NCBI RefSeq assembly: GCF_000348785.1 | Contig: NC_020520.1 | Location: 992,001 to 1,056,000 of the forward strand | Direction of reading: 5' to 3' | DNA from: Ilumatobacter coccineus YM16-304 | GTDB taxonomy: Bacteria > Actinomycetota > Acidimicrobiia > Acidimicrobiales > Ilumatobacteraceae | Length of the DNA: 64,000 bases | Part shown: one piece after another, positions 28,360 to 34,643 of the stretch | Position numbering within the stretch: position 1 is the stretch's first letter | Layout of the letters: each line of letters opens with the position of its first letter | Program-made: the position numbers and the translations under genes | Notes under the pieces: generated by a model | Databases searched by the model: none | The model's input: only the letters and a program-made list of their open reading frames with translations | What the model was told of the DNA's origin: nothing

Positions 28360-29394
28360 TCAGGCGACGAAGAGGTTGCTGGCCTGCGTGGTGCGAGTGA
28401 TGGCGTCGACCGCCAGCACCACGGCTGCTGCCGTGTACGACGTGTGCTCGTCGAACGGGAAGAGGACCGGCGCATCGTGCTTGCCGCCTTCGACCGGGTA
28501 CACGATGCCGGTCCAGTACGACCCGTCGTCACGACGGTGCGTGCGCGTCCACTGGAGCAGATCGGTGGCCGTCGACGTGTCGCCCATCGCCGCGAACGCG
28601 AGCGCGCACTCGGCCGTTTCCGACGCGGTCACCCACGGCTCGTCACTGACGCAACGAATGCCGAGACCTTCCATCACGAACGTGTCCCAGCCACTCGCCA
28701 TGCGCTTCTTCGCGTCGTCGCCGGTCATCGCACCGGTCAGGACGGGGTAGTACCAGTCCATCGCCCAGCGCGTCTTCGGTTCGAACGACTCGGGCTTGGT
28801 GCGAACGGCGAGCGCCATCTCGTCGGCGGCACGAACCCAATCGGGACGCGGCTCGTTGAGCGCCTCGGCCAGTTGCGCGCCACAGCGCAGGGCGTGCTGA
28901 ATGCTCGCCGTGCCGGTGAGCAGGGCGTAGTTCCACGGCCGCTCGTTGGCCTCGATCGCCCACAGCGCGAGCCCGTCGTCGCGTCGCAGCGACAGGACGA
29001 AGTCGAGCGCCTTCATCACCGTCGGCCACAAGTTCTCGGCGAATCCACGATCCCACGTGCTGCGCCAGTGATGCCACACGCCCGTCGCGATGTACGCGCA
29101 CACGTTGGTGTCGAGCTTCGACTCCTCGACCGAGCCGTCGTTGGCGTAGTAGGCGTGCCAACTCCCGTCGGCCCGCTGGGTGTCTTGCAGCCAGATGTAG
29201 GCCCGCTCGGCCTCGGTGTGCAGCCCGGCCACGTCGAGCGCCATCGCCGTCTCGACGTGGTTCCACGGGTCGCAGTGCCCGCCGGGGAACCAGGGGATCA
29301 TGCCCGTATCGAGTTGCAACGACGCCAGGTGCTCGGCGGTGGTGCGGAGCTCGTCGGCGGTGATGACACCCTCGAGTTCGGGGATCGCGCTCAT
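28360..29394 (-). CDS. alpha/alpha-toroid protein (prenyltransferase/squalene-cyclase-like)
   Basis: The 344-residue protein is built of alternating helices with recurring W-x-H and D-G-S/A motifs: DTGMIPWFPGGHCDPWNHVETAMAL-like segment, QRADGSWHAYY, LRRDDGLALWAIE and HRRDDGSYWTGIVYP. It matches the terpenoid-cyclase/prenyltransferase toroid superfamily but lacks the DxDD or DDxxD ionisation motif, so the chemistry is unclear. It overlaps the methyltransferase stop as ATGA and is the third gene of a glycosyltransferase operon. Confidence 0.75.
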   Translation of the reverse strand: MSAIPELEGVITADELRTTAEHLASLQLDTGMIPWFPGGHCDPWNHVETAMALDVAGLHTEAERAYIWLQDTQRADGSWHAYYANDGSVEESKLDTNVCAYIATGVWHHWRSTWDRGFAENLWPTVMKALDFVLSLRRDDGLALWAIEANERPWNYALLTGTASIQHALRCGAQLAEALNEPRPDWVRAADEMALAVRTKPESFEPKTRWAMDWYYPVLTGAMTGDDAKKRMASGWDTFVMEGLGIRCVSDEPWVTASETAECALAFAAMGDTSTATDLLQWTRTHRRDDGSYWTGIVYPVEGGKHDAPVLFPFDEHTSYTAAAVVLAVDAITRTTQASNLFVA

Positions 29395-30137
29395 GCAGCC
29401 GCGCTGTCTGCCGACGCGCTCGCCGGCTTGTGGGCGTAGAACACGATGCTCTTGCCGAGGGCGGGGGAGAGCACCTTCTCGGCGATCTTGGTCGACGTCG
29501 GCTGCTCGACGATGTCCCACTCGAGGAACTTGCGGTACTTCGCCACCAACGGGTGATCGTCGTTGCGCGGGCCGACGGCGCACTTCAGCCACCAGTACGG
29601 CGAGTGCAGTGCATGCGCCCGGTGGGTGCCGCGCACGTCGAGGCCGGCCGACCGCAGCTTCGCGCTCAACTCGGTCTTGGAGTAGATGCGCACGTGCCCG
29701 CCGACGCTCTTGGGTGCGTGGTACTCGTCCGACAGCATCCAGTTGATCTTCTCCGGGCCCCACGCCGGCACCGTGGCAGCGAACATGCCGCCCGGCTTGA
29801 GCACCCGGAACATCTCGGCGATCGCCGCCACATCGTCCTGGATGTGTTCGAGCACTTCGGAGGTGATGACGATGTCGAACGAATCGTCGTCGAACGGCAG
29901 GCGAGTGGCGTCGCCGCGCAGCACGCCCTTGAAGCGTTCGATGTCGATCTCGCCGGCGTCGACCATGGCGCCGAGCGTGGCGCGGGTCTCGACGACCTCG
30001 TCTTCGGCGTAGTCGAGTGCGACCACGTCGGCACCTCGGCGAGCGCACTCGAACACGTGGCGACCGAATCCGGCGCCGACGTCGAGGACACGGTGGCCCG
30101 GCTGCAGGCCGAGGCGATCGAAACGAATGGTGAGCAT
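29391..30137 (-). CDS. class I SAM-dependent methyltransferase
   Basis: The 248-residue protein has the full Methyltransf_11 pattern: motif I VLDVGAGFGRHVFECA, then VVALDYAEDEV, LPFDDDSFDIVITSEVLEHI and the post-III VLKPGGMFAATVP. The ATG at 30137 has a GGGGGA Shine-Dalgarno and lies 13 nt after the glycosyltransferase stop. The C-terminal 80 residues include several aromatic residues and may bind a lipid or sugar acceptor. Target unknown; the operon suggests a glycoconjugate. Confidence 0.85.
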   Translation of the reverse strand: MLTIRFDRLGLQPGHRVLDVGAGFGRHVFECARRGADVVALDYAEDEVVETRATLGAMVDAGEIDIERFKGVLRGDATRLPFDDDSFDIVITSEVLEHIQDDVAAIAEMFRVLKPGGMFAATVPAWGPEKINWMLSDEYHAPKSVGGHVRIYSKTELSAKLRSAGLDVRGTHRAHALHSPYWWLKCAVGPRNDDHPLVAKYRKFLEWDIVEQPTSTKIAEKVLSPALGKSIVFYAHKPASASADSAAA

Positions 30138-30150
30138 GCGTCGTCCCCCG

Positions 30151-31458
30151 TCAGAGCCGGCCGTTGCGGCGGAGCTTCTCGACGTTGGCGGGCATGGCCA
30201 GCACCTCGCGGTACTGATCGACGGTGAGCTCGGCGCAGCGCTTCCACGTCCAGCGGTCGAGCACGCGCTGGCGACCGGCTTCGCCGATCTTGTCGCGCAG
30301 TTCCTTGCTGTCGAGCCCGCGTGCGATTGCCGCAGCGAGTGCGTCGGCATCGCCTGCCGGGCAGCGCAGCGTGGTCTCGCCGTCGACGCCGGTGACTTCG
30401 GGGAGGGCGCCGCCGTCGGTGGCGACGAGCGGGGTTCCCGAGCACATCGCCTCGATCGCCGGGAGGCTGAACCCTTCGTACAGACTCGGCACGACGGCCA
30501 GCTCAGCCTCGGAGTACAGCTCGACGATTCGCTCGTCGGGCACGCCCGACACGAACTCGATGTGCTCCTTCAGGCCCAACTCCTCGATGAGGCGCATCGA
30601 CTTGCCGGGCTTGGGCTTGCCGATGATGGTGAGGGTGACGTCACGCTCGGTGCGCAGCTTCGCCATCGCCTCGAGCAGGTACGACAGGCCCTTGAGCGCC
30701 ACGTCGGCCGACGCGGTGGTGATGAGGCGGCCGGGCTTGCGTTCGACGTTGTCGAGCGGGCGGAACAGATCGGGGTCGACGCCGACGGGCACGAGGCGCA
30801 TGCGGTCGCGGCTCACCCCCATGTCCTTGTGGATGTCGTCGATCGAGTTCTGACTCACCACGACGATGCGGGGCATCTTCGACGCGACCTTGCCCTGCAT
30901 CTTGACGAACGAGTACCAGCGGCCCACCGACCAGCGCTTGTACCGCGACTTCGCGTGGCTCATCTCGAGTTCGCGGTCTTTGGTGATCGGGTGGTGCAGC
31001 GTGACGATCGTCGGGATCTGCTCCTCGATCTTCAAGATGCCCTTGCCCAGGCACTGGTTGTCGTGGACGAGGTCGAAGTCGTGGGTGCGCTTCTTCAACT
31101 CGTTGGCGGCGCGGGCCGAGAAGGCGAGTGGCTCGGGGAAGGTGCCGGTGAGGAACTGCGCCATCTCGAGCAGGTCGTAGCGGTCGTTGATCTCCCAGTA
31201 GCCGGGGAGCCGGCCGGGGAAGTGGTCGTTGAACGTGTCGAGGCTCGGCAACTTGTGCAGCTCGACCCGCTCGTCGAGTACGGGGTAGGGCTGGCCGCCG
31301 AAGACCTCGACGGTGTGGCCGAGGTCGGCGAGCGCCTTGGTGAGGTGCCGCGTGTACACACCCTGGCCGCCGACGTGCGGCTTGCCGCGATACGTCAGGT
31401 AGGCGATTTTCAGCGGCGCATCCGGATCCAACACGCTTCCCGATCCATTCGATGCCAT
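30151..31458 (-). CDS. glycosyltransferase family 4 protein
   Basis: The 435-residue GT-B enzyme has KIAYLTYRGKPHVGGQGVY at the N-terminus, the donor-site E-x7-E region in PSLYEGFSLPAIEAMCSGTPL, and VATDGGALPEV after it. A retaining transferase using a nucleotide sugar is expected; donor and acceptor are unknown. The ATG at 31458 follows TAACAT by 7 nt, so it is probably leaderless; the earlier in-frame start at 31512 would lie upstream of that box. First gene of a three-gene operon with a methyltransferase and a toroid protein. Confidence 0.87.
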   Translation of the reverse strand: MASNGSGSVLDPDAPLKIAYLTYRGKPHVGGQGVYTRHLTKALADLGHTVEVFGGQPYPVLDERVELHKLPSLDTFNDHFPGRLPGYWEINDRYDLLEMAQFLTGTFPEPLAFSARAANELKKRTHDFDLVHDNQCLGKGILKIEEQIPTIVTLHHPITKDRELEMSHAKSRYKRWSVGRWYSFVKMQGKVASKMPRIVVVSQNSIDDIHKDMGVSRDRMRLVPVGVDPDLFRPLDNVERKPGRLITTASADVALKGLSYLLEAMAKLRTERDVTLTIIGKPKPGKSMRLIEELGLKEHIEFVSGVPDERIVELYSEAELAVVPSLYEGFSLPAIEAMCSGTPLVATDGGALPEVTGVDGETTLRCPAGDADALAAAIARGLDSKELRDKIGEAGRQRVLDRWTWKRCAELTVDQYREVLAMPANVEKLRRNGRL

Positions 31459-31465
31459 TGGAACG

Positions 31466-31471
31466 ATGTTA
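31466..31471 (-). promoter_or_regulatory. TAACAT -10-like box for the glycosyltransferase operon
   Basis: On the minus strand TAACAT lies 7 nt before the ATG at 31458. A perfect 39-nt palindrome (31515-31553) starts 43 nt further upstream. Confidence 0.5.
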
Positions 31472-31514
31472 CAGCCACCAGTTACCAACCGGTAAGTGAG
31501 ACTCACCCCCACCC

Positions 31515-31553
31515 AAGTTGATTACATCGCTCCGGGAGCGATGTAATCAACTT
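31515..31553. repeat. REP-like 39-nt perfect palindrome (copy 1)
   Basis: The left arm AAGTTGATTACATCGCTCC (19 nt), one central G and the exact reverse complement form a perfect palindrome. It lies between the divergent glycosyltransferase and RAYT genes. It shares the core GCTCCGGGAGC and length with four other copies in this window, and the architecture with a fifth. Confidence 0.8.
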
Positions 31554-31598
31554 TGCACGGCCTGCCGGGTTTTTCGGGTTCGGCTGGATGATGGAGCG

Positions 31599-32486
31599 AT
31601 GCCACGACGTTCTGGGCTCGACTCCTCTGAGGTGTTCCATGTGTTCAACAGGGGCGCCGATCGACAAGACATCTTCGTATCCGATCGCGACCAGCGATGG
31701 TTCGAACTCCTGCTCGCAGAAATGGTCGCCGAACGTGGCGTCCTGGTTCACGCCTACGCGCTCATGACGAACCACTACCACCTGATCCTGCAGGCGGTCG
31801 GGAAACGACTGAGCGAAGCGATGTACTTCCTCGGCAAGGAGTACGCGTTGTACTTCAATGACACGACGGATCGATCCGGGCCGCTCTGCGACAGTCGGTT
31901 CAATGCGGTGCCGATCGTCGACTCCAACATGCTGATGGTCGAGGGCCGCTATGTCCACCGCAACCCGATCGACATCGTCGGAGTGCGGGCTCTGCCGTCG
32001 TACCGATACTCCAGCCTTCCTGCGTATCTCGGGTCGAGACCCACACCCGACTGGCTCACGACCGGCGCGCTGCTCGCTCCCTTCCTGGGCGATCGCGCCG
32101 CGTACCTCGACTTCGTGCAGCGCGCCCATCCGACCGATGCCCAGTACAGCGGAGCGCGGCCACCGCTTCGCCCGGCGACCATCGACGACGTCTGCAACGC
32201 GGTTGCCGCTTGCGCCGGAATCGAGCCCGAGTCGCTACGAGCCGTCCGCCGCGGTTGCCGGAACGATCCCCGATCGCTCGTTGCCGTGCTGGCGCTCGAA
32301 TTGCGTGTCGCATCGGCCGCATTCGTGGCGGAGGTGGTCGGATTCTCCTCGAGTCAGACGGTGCGCAACGCCGCAGCGCGCGGACGAGCCCGGCTCGCTG
32401 TCGACCCGTCGTTCCGCCAGTTTCGCGAGCGAGTTCTTCGCCAGCTTTCCGGCCAAGTTGGTTACGACGCTCCGGGAGCCGCGTAA
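31599..32486 (+). CDS. REP-associated tyrosine transposase (RAYT, IS200/Y1-like)
   Basis: The 295-residue protein starts MPRRSGLDSSEVFHVFNRG, the usual RAYT opening. The HUH motif is in MTNHYHLILQ, and the helix with the nucleophilic Tyr candidate is GRYVHRNPI. The C-terminal 90 residues resemble a DnaA-type helix-turn-helix (VCNAVAACAGIEPESLRA and FVAEVVGFSSSQTVRNAAARGRA split), as in one RAYT class. RAYTs act on REP hairpins as single-strand nucleases. Its last codons lie inside REP copy 2 and it is flanked by four REP-like palindromes. I prefer the ATG at 31599; the frame from 31518 reads through copy 1. Confidence 0.85.
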   Translation: MPRRSGLDSSEVFHVFNRGADRQDIFVSDRDQRWFELLLAEMVAERGVLVHAYALMTNHYHLILQAVGKRLSEAMYFLGKEYALYFNDTTDRSGPLCDSRFNAVPIVDSNMLMVEGRYVHRNPIDIVGVRALPSYRYSSLPAYLGSRPTPDWLTTGALLAPFLGDRAAYLDFVQRAHPTDAQYSGARPPLRPATIDDVCNAVAACAGIEPESLRAVRRGCRNDPRSLVAVLALELRVASAAFVAEVVGFSSSQTVRNAAARGRARLAVDPSFRQFRERVLRQLSGQVGYDAPGAA

Positions 32487-32493
32487 CCAGGTT
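32455..32493. repeat. REP-like 39-nt palindrome (copy 2)
   Basis: Left arm AAGTTGGTTACGACGCTCC, central G, right arm GGAGCCGCGTAACCAGGTT. The pairing is imperfect near the middle of the arms (ACG against CGC). The RAYT stop codon TAA (32484-32486) lies within the right arm, so the repeat encodes the last residues of the transposase. Confidence 0.8.
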
Positions 32494-32500
32494 CGGGGGC

Positions 32501-32539
32501 GAGTTGGTTACGACGCTCCGGGAGCTGCGTAACCAGGTT
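32501..32539. repeat. REP-like 39-nt palindrome (copy 3)
   Basis: GAGTTGGTTACGACGCTCC, central G, GGAGCTGCGTAACCAGGTT. It starts 7 nt after copy 2 and differs from it at two positions, so it looks like a tandem duplication. Confidence 0.8.
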
Positions 32540-32545
32540 TGGGGC

Positions 32546-32584
32546 GAGTTGGTTACATCGCTCCGGGAGCTGCGTAATCAGGTT
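32546..32584. repeat. REP-like 39-nt palindrome (copy 4)
   Basis: GAGTTGGTTACATCGCTCC, central G, GGAGCTGCGTAATCAGGTT. It starts 6 nt after copy 3, and its last base is the first base of the minus-strand stop codon of the sigma-fusion gene. Copies 2-4 may also serve as a bidirectional terminator. Confidence 0.8.
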
Positions 32585-34545
32585 CAGCAGGTGACGGAGA
32601 CGTTGACGGAGCCGCCGGTGGAGGAGGTGTTGCCACGGGAGTCGGTGGCGCTGACCGACCAACTCCACGTGCCGTTCACCTCCGAGCTCGACACGTAACC
32701 GATCTGGATCGTGCCCGACCACGGGCCGACGCTGGTCGGCGGGGCCAACGCGGTCGAACCCGACTGGCCGAGCGGCCCGCCCGACACGGCGAACGTGGCG
32801 CTGATCGGCGGGGACTCGTCGGAGATGTCGGCGAGCCCGGAGAAATAGAGCACGCACCCGGCGCCGAACGGGCCCGAAGAGAACACGGCCGGCGTGCTCG
32901 CCGACAGCGTCGGCGGACGCTCGACCGATGCCTGCAGGTCGAGCGGGAGCGACTGGCCACCGCCCGACACCTGCACGTTGCGGAACTGGGTCTGCCCCTC
33001 GGGGAGCCCCGACCGGTCGATGGAAGCGACGATCTGCTGGGTTTCACCGGGGCTCAGCGTTCCCGAGGTGGGTGACACGGTGAAGGGGGCCGTGGCGCCG
33101 GTGACGGTGTAGCTGATCGGCTGACCACCGGTGTTCGACACGGTGACCGACCCGGAGTTCGAGTTGGATCCCAGGTTGATCAGGCCACCCGAGAGGCTCA
33201 GTTGGCCCGGAGCCGCGGGTTCGGTGGTGGTCGTCGTGGTGGTCGTGGTCGTGGTGGTGGCCGGCGGGAGCGTCGTCGGCGGTGAGGTGGCGGGTGGTGA
33301 CGTCGGCGTCGGCGCAACGGTCGCCGGCGGCGGCGGAGGAGGCGGAGGCGGGGCTTGCGTGACGGCTGGAGCGACCGTGGTGGGGGCAACGGTCGTGGTG
33401 ACGGCGGTGGTCGTCGTCGTGTCGGGGACGGTCGTCGTGGTGGTCGTCGGCCCGGTCGTGCTGGTCGTCGAACTGGTCGACGACGAAGACGACGACGGAG
33501 CGACGGCCAGATCGGTCGTGGTGGTCTCGGGAGCGAGCGTCGTGGTGGTGTCGATCGTGGCGCCTCGCAACGAGTCGGACTCGCCCGTCTGATTGAGCCA
33601 GAAGAAGCTCAACGACGCGACGACGAGAACGAGCGACGCAGCGGCCGTCGGTGCCACCCACGCGGCGACCTTGCGACCCATGCGCACGACCTGCGGGAAG
33701 CCGCCGTCGGCGGTGAAGCCGTACGGCGTGGACGGGGCCGCTGCCTGCACGGCGGCCGCCTCGAGAATGCGGTCGCGGAGCGAGACCGGAGCGGCGAGCA
33801 CCGGCGCGCCGGCGAACAGGGCGAGCGGTGCGACCTTGCCGCGGTGCGTGTCGCAGACCTCGCAGTTGTCGATGTGTCGAGCGACGCGCTTGCGGATGAG
33901 CACGGTGAACTCGCCGTCCCACTTGGCGAGCAGCTTGTCGAGATCGTCGCAGTCCTTGCGGCCGGCCTTGGCGACGACGAACGCCGACAGACTCCGCTCG
34001 ACGCGCTCGCGCATGCGGTGCACGAGCGTGTAGCTCTGATTCGCGCTCACGCCCAGCGCGTCCGCCAGGTCTTGACCTTCGAGCCCCTGGCGCACCGAGA
34101 GTTCGAGCACGAGTTGGTCGCGCTCGTCGAGCCCGCGCGCGGCACCGCGAACGAGTTCGGCGAGATCCTCGCCAGCGGTGTCTTCGATGACTTCCTCGTC
34201 GACGTCGAGGTGGCGATCGTCAGCCATGTCGTATCCGTCGTCCGCCCCAGAGAAGTCGGTCGCGATCGTGCGTTTCCGCTTCTTCGTGCGCCGATACACC
34301 TCGTTGCGCAGGATCGCGAACAGCCAGGGCTTCAGTCGCTCGGGATCGCGCAGCTGGCCGAGTCGTTCGGCAGCGATGAGGATGACGTCTTGCAGCACAT
34401 CGGCCGACTCGTGGCGGTCGTTGAGCATCGCCGCCGCCGTGTCGTGCAGCGAATCGGCATATCGGTCGTAGATCCCAGCGAGCGCGCTCGGGTCGCCGGC
34501 CAGATGGCTGGCGACCAGTTGGGCGTCGGTGTCGGTGGTTGTCAT
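32584..34545 (-). CDS. ECF sigma factor fused to zinc-motif, membrane span and exported domain
   Basis: The protein has 653 residues. Sigma region 2 lies at about 8-92 (SLHDTAAAMLNDRHESADVLQDV, LKPWLFAILRNEVYRR in parts). Sigma region 4 lies at about 125-190 (LDERDQLVLELSVRQGLEGQDL, GVSANQSYTLVHRM). H224-x3-C228-x2-C231 (HIDNCEVC) follows, like the zinc-binding anti-sigma motif. A single span covers 295-316, a Thr/Pro-rich stalk 331-443, then a BACON-like beta domain (about 445-540) and a C-terminal beta domain. It thus combines sigma, anti-sigma-like and sensor parts in one chain. The frame is uninterrupted, so the fusion appears genuine. Confidence 0.85.
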   Translation of the reverse strand: MTTTDTDAQLVASHLAGDPSALAGIYDRYADSLHDTAAAMLNDRHESADVLQDVILIAAERLGQLRDPERLKPWLFAILRNEVYRRTKKRKRTIATDFSGADDGYDMADDRHLDVDEEVIEDTAGEDLAELVRGAARGLDERDQLVLELSVRQGLEGQDLADALGVSANQSYTLVHRMRERVERSLSAFVVAKAGRKDCDDLDKLLAKWDGEFTVLIRKRVARHIDNCEVCDTHRGKVAPLALFAGAPVLAAPVSLRDRILEAAAVQAAAPSTPYGFTADGGFPQVVRMGRKVAAWVAPTAAASLVLVVASLSFFWLNQTGESDSLRGATIDTTTTLAPETTTTDLAVAPSSSSSSTSSTTSTTGPTTTTTTVPDTTTTTAVTTTVAPTTVAPAVTQAPPPPPPPPPATVAPTPTSPPATSPPTTLPPATTTTTTTTTTTTEPAAPGQLSLSGGLINLGSNSNSGSVTVSNTGGQPISYTVTGATAPFTVSPTSGTLSPGETQQIVASIDRSGLPEGQTQFRNVQVSGGGQSLPLDLQASVERPPTLSASTPAVFSSGPFGAGCVLYFSGLADISDESPPISATFAVSGGPLGQSGSTALAPPTSVGPWSGTIQIGYVSSSEVNGTWSWSVSATDSRGNTSSTGGSVNVSVTC

Positions 34546-34643
34546 GGACCATGGGTCATCTCCTCACCTGTCCAGAGCAGGCGGGGATGACGTTCTCGCG
34601 GTTTTCGACGAGGAGTTCTCGTCAGTTCGTGGTCAGGAAATCG

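Follow-up and report, generated by a model that had tools for sequence, protein, structure and literature searches.

The window analyzed here, a 64,000-nucleotide stretch of the Ilumatobacter coccineus YM16-304 genome, carries on its minus strand a gene (32584–34545) in which an ECF sigma factor is fused to a zinc anti-sigma domain, a membrane helix, a stalk, and two outer domains. A candidate promoter lies ahead of this fusion gene, and three conserved genes with matches to glycan-related or general enzyme families lie downstream, separated from it in this genome by a REP-associated unit. The frame runs intact from ATG to TGA, encodes 653 amino acids, and has orthologous frames in other genomes. 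Its GC3 remains at 0.80–0.93 across the entire length, the stalk included, as expected of one coding frame. The initial annotation, made from the letters of the window alone, had described a single uninterrupted frame with complete sigma regions 2 and 4, and our data bear this out. Region 2 (residues 25–93; 34267–34473, minus strand) matches PF04542 (Sigma70_r2) above the cut-off, with 36.8 bits, and region 4 (residues 133–181; 34003–34149, minus strand) matches PF08281 below it (19.1 bits; cut-off, 25.7). Both regions are spanned by the NCBIfam model TIGR02937 (sigma70-ECF), which covers residues 21–184 and, scoring 62.4 bits, exceeds its cut-off (42.9). The protein thus contains regions 2 and 4 without region 3, the layout that defines an ECF sigma factor, and structure comparison of the model matched the sigma part to SigW (Z 14.9; rmsd 3.1–3.5 over 93 residues).

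Zinc domain, membrane helix, and stalk

Behind region 4 lies a zinc anti-sigma domain (residues 199–262; 33760–33951, minus strand). The H-x3-C-x2-C motif that had been noted at the outset is present, but the list of ligands was short by one: the full four-ligand motif reads C199-x24-H224-x3-C228-x2-C231, with C199 as the fourth ligand. A first ligand followed by H-x3-C-x2-C is the motif of class I zinc anti-sigma domains. Across the 56 aligned proteins described below, each ligand column is occupied by its ligand in 54, the window protein among them, and a pattern search recovered the whole motif in 52. Pfam zf-HC2 (PF13490) gave no match on the window protein at E values up to 1; it matches 5 of the 56 proteins and is a common, not universal, mark of zinc anti-sigma domains. 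In the structural model, the domain is helical, with pLDDT values of 72–88 at residues 191–240 and below 50 at residues 246–261, and its packing against the sigma part is modeled without confidence (pTM 0.41). Three proteins from one actinobacterial family (L070, L076, and L085) retain the overall layout without the H-x3-C-x2-C motif.

The single membrane helix proposed initially was located at residues ~297–315 (33601–33657, minus strand; hydropathy 2.01), with the N-terminus predicted to be inside. This orientation is in line with the distribution of charged residues, since the N-side flank is richer in Lys and Arg in 51 of the 56 proteins, equal in 4, and reversed in 1. The Thr/Pro stalk proposed alongside it appears in the translation as a Thr/Ser/Pro-rich stretch of ~130 residues (317–445; 33211–33597, minus strand), whose length and letters differ among relatives.

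A comparison with the orthologue from the same genus revealed how unevenly the fusion has been conserved. Regions 2 and 4 are identical at 86 of 97 (89%) and 63 of 68 (93%) positions, respectively, and the zinc domain at 55 of 67 (~82%), as against 41 of 127 in the stalk and 48 of 96 and 47 of 100 (~50%) in the two outer domains. By this measure, conservation within the fusion is highest in the sigma and zinc domains, and the outer parts drift. Collectively, the architecture, the predicted topology, and the reading as a single chain are supported.

Outer domains

The two exported beta domains claimed earlier fall within residues 440–653, which were modeled confidently (mean pLDDT 89.7). Outer domain 1 (residues 446–542; 32920–33210, minus strand) has an Ig fold of the ASH/MSP/PapD type. 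Its Pfam matches, BACON_2 (29.3 bits) and HYDIN Ig (26.2 bits), both lie just above the cut-off, and HYDIN chains top the profile search with this domain. The VIA matches of outer domain 1 have Z scores of about 12, with rmsd values of 1.7–2.8 over 94–97 residues; examples are the ASH domain of OCRL (Z 12.0, rmsd 2.4, 95 aligned residues), CEP192 (Z 12.0, rmsd 2.8, 97 aligned), and PapD (Z 11.8, rmsd 1.9, 94 aligned). This likeness is one of fold and not of function. Outer domain 2 (residues 543–653; 32587–32919, minus strand) is Ig-like by model and has a weak profile match to the biofilm-associated surface protein 7dm0 (E 7.4e-6). Few rows of the VIA lists reached this domain or the anti-sigma region, which for these two parts amounts to an absence of matches only.

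Outer domain 2 contains C564 and ends in C653. The terminal residue is Cys in all eight close proteins and, over the 56-protein alignment, in 25 (with 25 gaps), and the C564 column holds 35 Cys and 18 gaps. A disulfide outside the cell would suit these cysteines.

Other fusions combine the same inner parts with different outer ones. Eight carry a CAP domain (PF00188) and come from genomes that we assigned to Streptomyces on the basis of their NPCBM fusions and the neighbors of these. A literature search for CAP-domain sigma factors found no paper. Another relative (L074:1351–3003), from a bacterium of the window's taxonomic order, has an ECF sigma factor, zinc motif, and membrane span followed by two PASTA stretches. 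PASTA domains bind wall material. Several further relatives end in Ig-type domains, and Big_13 matches, below its cut-off, the outer part of one of the Nocardioides relatives (L044). As these layouts indicate, the outer domains of such fusions are exchangeable between lineages.

Gene order around the fusion gene

The window clade comprises 17 members; the contigs of three of them end in or just after the gene, leaving 14 with downstream sequence. In 12 of these 14, the window included, the next conserved gene encodes a GT4 glycosyltransferase (30151–31512 in the window, minus strand; PF00534 and PF13439). L046 has no glycan genes downstream, L020 has none within the 624 nt in view, and the conserved neighborhood and glycan genes are not present in the two Nocardioides relatives (L044 and L045). 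The glycosyltransferase gene is followed on the minus strand by a SAM methyltransferase gene (29391–30350; PF08241), whose true start is probably near 30140, and by a gene for a GH15/toroid-like protein (28360–29466, start approximate). All three genes were recognized with the help of synteny. The glycosyltransferase and methyltransferase match general families only, and the third protein scores 54.2 bits with TIGR01577, far below the cut-off, and matches SQHop_cyclase_N below the cut-off as well.

For ten relatives, the available sequence covers all three downstream genes. In these, the first ATG of the glycosyltransferase gene lies 28–100 nt past the stop codon of the fusion gene, its product is about 74–90% identical, and the methyltransferase and then the GH15/toroid-like protein follow. 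Upstream, an aldose epimerase match was found in nine of the ten (short in one of them) and Lnt in eight; in the window, a sortase lies beyond the aldose epimerase and Lnt. Given the spacing in the relatives, the fusion gene and the glycan genes are probably co-transcribed.

The window departs from these ten relatives in the distance from the fusion gene to the glycosyltransferase gene, 1071 nt versus 28–100 nt, because a REP-associated transposase-like unit has its place between the two (31518–32583, plus strand). Its match to PF01797 (Y1_Tnp) has an E value of 0.00089, below the cut-off, and REP copies flank it at both ends, the last one ending ~4 nt from the stop codon of the fusion gene. 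A search for the REP core, on both strands and with up to two mismatches, returned 99 matches genome-wide, many of them overlapping as palindromes, versus none for the reversed control.

Upstream element

Upstream of the fusion gene, 24 nt before the ATG, lies the element GCGAGA-N17-TCTGGAC (34570–34599, minus strand). Of 17 loci, counting that of the window, 5 agree with the element at all 13 places and 9 at no fewer than 11, with spacings of 17–19 nt, and in those loci the element begins 54–82 nt before the start codon used. For the nine loci with at least 11 matches, at most 0.3% of 300 shuffles equaled the score, and the other eight are not clearly distinguishable from shuffles; since the motif was read off the scored sequences, these figures serve as description and not as independent evidence. 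A search of the whole genome for the exact pattern (TCTGGAC or TCTTGAC, with a spacing of 17–18) gave a single match, at the fusion gene.

We found no indication of a wider regulon. An exact search of seven genomes returned 10 matches; 5 of them lie at the fusion gene, and the 5 at other places do not exceed the 5 obtained with the reversed control, and a search of the 64-kb window with up to two mismatches returned the exact site only (4.5 matches expected). In 18 more distant relatives, mycobacterial ones included, the best matches cover 7–10 of the 13 places and are inconsistent. A promoter of the RpoE type (GAAC/CGTC) was also considered, and no consistent match to it was found upstream. 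The element is a candidate for a private promoter of the operon.

Distribution of the fusion

With residues 1–320 as the query, a search of 61 genomes of the window's family, its own included, revealed a match below 1e-50 in 14, of which 12 have an open frame of at least 540 amino acids and the remaining two are cut by contig ends. Across the class, relatives were found at E values up to 1e-60 in at least 19, and up to 1e-20 in at least 36, of 198 genomes (its own included), and across the phylum a match at 1e-16 or better was found in at least 42 of 396 genomes; these tallies are lower bounds because at most 11 candidates per genome were scored for the class and 5 for the phylum. The fusion is therefore not a curiosity of one strain, and its layout is conserved among related bacteria. 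Of the contigs that carry a name, the closest belong to Ilumatobacter and other bins of the Acidimicrobiales type, and two Nocardioides are among the named relatives. In the loci examined, no close relative consists of a sigma gene plus a separate membrane gene, the arrangement that would have spoken against a genuine fusion.

Our alignment (A1) holds 56 of 69 proteins. The 13 left out are six solo or remote sigmas, three contig-cut proteins (L017, L019, and L039), one duplicate, and three short forms; the tree kept the three contig-cut proteins and left out the other ten. The short forms (L023–L025), from a genus with small genomes, are 209–248 amino acids long; they terminate immediately behind the zinc motif and share their final residues. 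They have apparently lost the membrane part, and no membrane partner was seen by eye downstream on the same strand. Another genome of that genus (G001) retains a long form of 540 amino acids.

The window genome itself holds 33 region-2 matches. Six of its sigma frames were inspected, and none has a zinc motif together with a membrane span; two further frames (L094 and L008) were removed by a letter-composition cut. One of the six (L108:2012–3472) is a 487-aa frame that begins with most of sigma region 2 and continues with a long unmatched part, with no match to region 4.

Relationship to known fused ECF groups

Fused sigma factors have been described before. ECF52 protein SCO4117 of Streptomyces combines a sigma factor, zinc finger, membrane span, proline-rich stalk, and carbohydrate-binding module, as described in PMC5826349. 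For ECF48, ECF52, and ECF53, the prediction in a 2022 review is that a membrane anti-sigma part in the same chain restrains the sigma factor until proteolysis frees it; for ECF48 and ECF53, both from Actinobacteria, the review gives a predicted C-terminal zinc anti-sigma domain with one or two membrane helices, and the ECF48 example that it names is mycobacterial (PMC8999054). The same account presents IutY of Pseudomonas putida (ECF243) as carrying a membrane anti-sigma part behind the sigma factor and as being activated by proteolysis; fused sensors are known mostly as predictions, and among those in that review the mechanism has been tested for IutY only (PMC8999054). Our literature search combining Ilumatobacter with sigma or anti-sigma factor found nothing on the topic, and its one match concerns, by title, mismatch repair.

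The initial annotation had called the domain set distinctive and had left open which ECF group it belongs to. The first point stands in part. The order of the parts was already published for ECF52 and predicted for ECF48 and ECF53: like SCO4117, the window protein is an actinobacterial single chain with regions 2 and 4, a zinc domain, a span, a proline-rich stalk, and an outer domain. It departs from these in its outer domains, its position in the tree, and the genes linked to it. The outer part of ECF52 is NPCBM, for which Pfam gave no match in the window protein, with its Ig-type domains. We represented SCO4117 by five stand-ins (L119–L123) picked by their NPCBM domain and neighboring genes; in one of them (L119), Pfam places the sigma factor, zf-HC2, and NPCBM in one frame. 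As we read their neighborhoods, a TetR-type gene adjoins in all five (the published neighbor of SCO4117 is atrA). The stand-ins also lie next to an NADH-dehydrogenase-like gene, and not next to glycan genes.

In the tree, the stand-ins form a clade of their own with two proteins from genomes of the window's family (L092 and L093), apart from the 45-row clade that holds the window protein (support 97/91). L092 and L093 thus represent a second, distinct fusion lineage in that family. A joint clade of the 17 rows of the window clade with the 5 stand-ins was rejected (lnL 120.9 lower; p-AU 0.000538), and both this test and the outer domain speak against membership in ECF52; a joint clade of the 17 rows with the CAP-containing clade (10 rows) was not rejected (lnL 8.4 lower; p-AU 0.279). 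Both results apply to groups named after the tree was seen, and the deep order of the tree is uncertain because it contains several long branches.

The 45-row clade includes four mycobacterial rows, whose genus we inferred from PPE genes (4, 49, and 44 matches), along with many other lineages. Since the ECF48 example named in the literature is also mycobacterial, ECF48 is a lead, and the window protein may, together with the mycobacterial and other actinobacterial fusions, belong to this group. ECF48 and ECF53 resemble it in the zinc anti-sigma domain and membrane helix, a comparison made with the published description rather than with sequences. IutY, likewise compared by description, resembles it in the membrane anti-sigma part fused behind the sigma factor and differs in serving iron cell-surface signaling (PMC8999054). 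The CAP-domain fusions share the sigma factor, zinc motif, span, stalk, and an outer domain with the window protein; they differ in that the outer domain is CAP and in forming a separate clade. Against this background, the new elements are the outer domains, the upstream element, and the conserved gene order.

DISCUSSION

The fusion is real, conserved, and was already correctly described from the sequence. As to what it does, the explanation that we favor, and consider somewhat more probable than all others combined, is that of a self-inhibited, membrane-tethered ECF sigma factor that senses the envelope, is released by proteolysis, and drives a surface-glycan operon. The zinc domain behind region 4 would clamp regions 2 and 4 of its own chain on the cytoplasmic side of the membrane, and the stalk would carry the two Ig-type domains through the wall, to act there as sensors of the envelope or cell surface. 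In response to a signal, a cut outside the membrane would be followed by one inside it, made by a protease of the site-2 type. With the zinc domain removed, the freed sigma factor would bring polymerase to the promoter before its own gene and raise the expression of that gene and of the glycosyltransferase, the methyltransferase, and the third enzyme, which would make or modify a glycan or glycolipid of the cell surface. The truncated SCO4117 and IutY offer precedents for a self-inhibited fused sigma factor, as presented in PMC5826349 and PMC8999054. The window genome has a gene for an M50 protease of the site-2 type; because the same holds for all 14 control genomes, this support is permissive only.

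Other explanations have to be weighed against this one. The zinc domain might itself be the sensor: as in RsrA, oxidation in the cytoplasm would expel zinc from a Cys-His-Cys-Cys site and free the sigma factor or loosen its hold, and the outer part would serve as an anchor. RsrA has Cys, and ChrR has His, at the place of the first ligand, and the first ligand is Cys, not His, in 54 of our 56 proteins. This would, however, leave unexplained a conserved exported part of two domains and the exchange of outer domains among lineages, and the three proteins that retain the layout without H-x3-C-x2-C do not fit it. Zinc motifs in membrane-bound anti-sigma domains may also be structural, as argued in PMC7406223. 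We regard a zinc sensor as unlikely.

Alternatively, the sigma factor could act while tethered, with a conformational change borne by the helix opening the zinc clamp so that nearby genes are transcribed without any cut. Two observations make a locally acting sigma factor conceivable: 12 of 14 clade members have the glycan genes beside the gene for the sigma factor, and the genome contains the element a single time. The known fused cases, however, are activated by cutting or proposed to be so, as described for IutY and in the SCO4117 model (PMC8999054), and we give activity in the uncut state a small chance. It is very improbable that the sigma factor no longer transcribes and that the product serves mainly as a surface or stalk protein, its cytoplasmic part being a remnant: the score of region 4 below the Pfam cut-off would fit such decay, but in the comparison with the same-genus orthologue regions 2 and 4 are the best conserved, and it is the outer parts that drift. 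In ECF systems, the sigma and the anti-sigma factor usually come from two adjacent genes, and a sequencing or annotation error might have joined such a pair here, but the same fusion in independent genomes and assemblies contradicts an artefact, and with the even GC3 and no sign of a frameshift the chance of such a joining is negligible.

Returning to the self-inhibited sigma factor released by proteolysis, we tentatively extend it, as a proposal that has a real chance but is more likely wrong than right, to a widespread actinobacterial family. Its members would share a constant chassis of sigma factor, zinc clamp, and membrane helix and carry wall-facing domains that differ between lineages: Ig-type domains in the window protein, PASTA in a member of its taxonomic order, and CAP in the Streptomyces-type genomes. 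In the window's family, a private promoter, found once in the window genome, would connect the sensor with one adjacent glycan operon, so that one polypeptide would sense the surface and feed back on a surface polymer. In the clade studied here, the system would be compact, with a single polypeptide, a single candidate promoter, and a single candidate operon as its target. So small a set of parts would make it easier to study the release of a membrane-tied sigma factor and the signals that the outer domains recognize.
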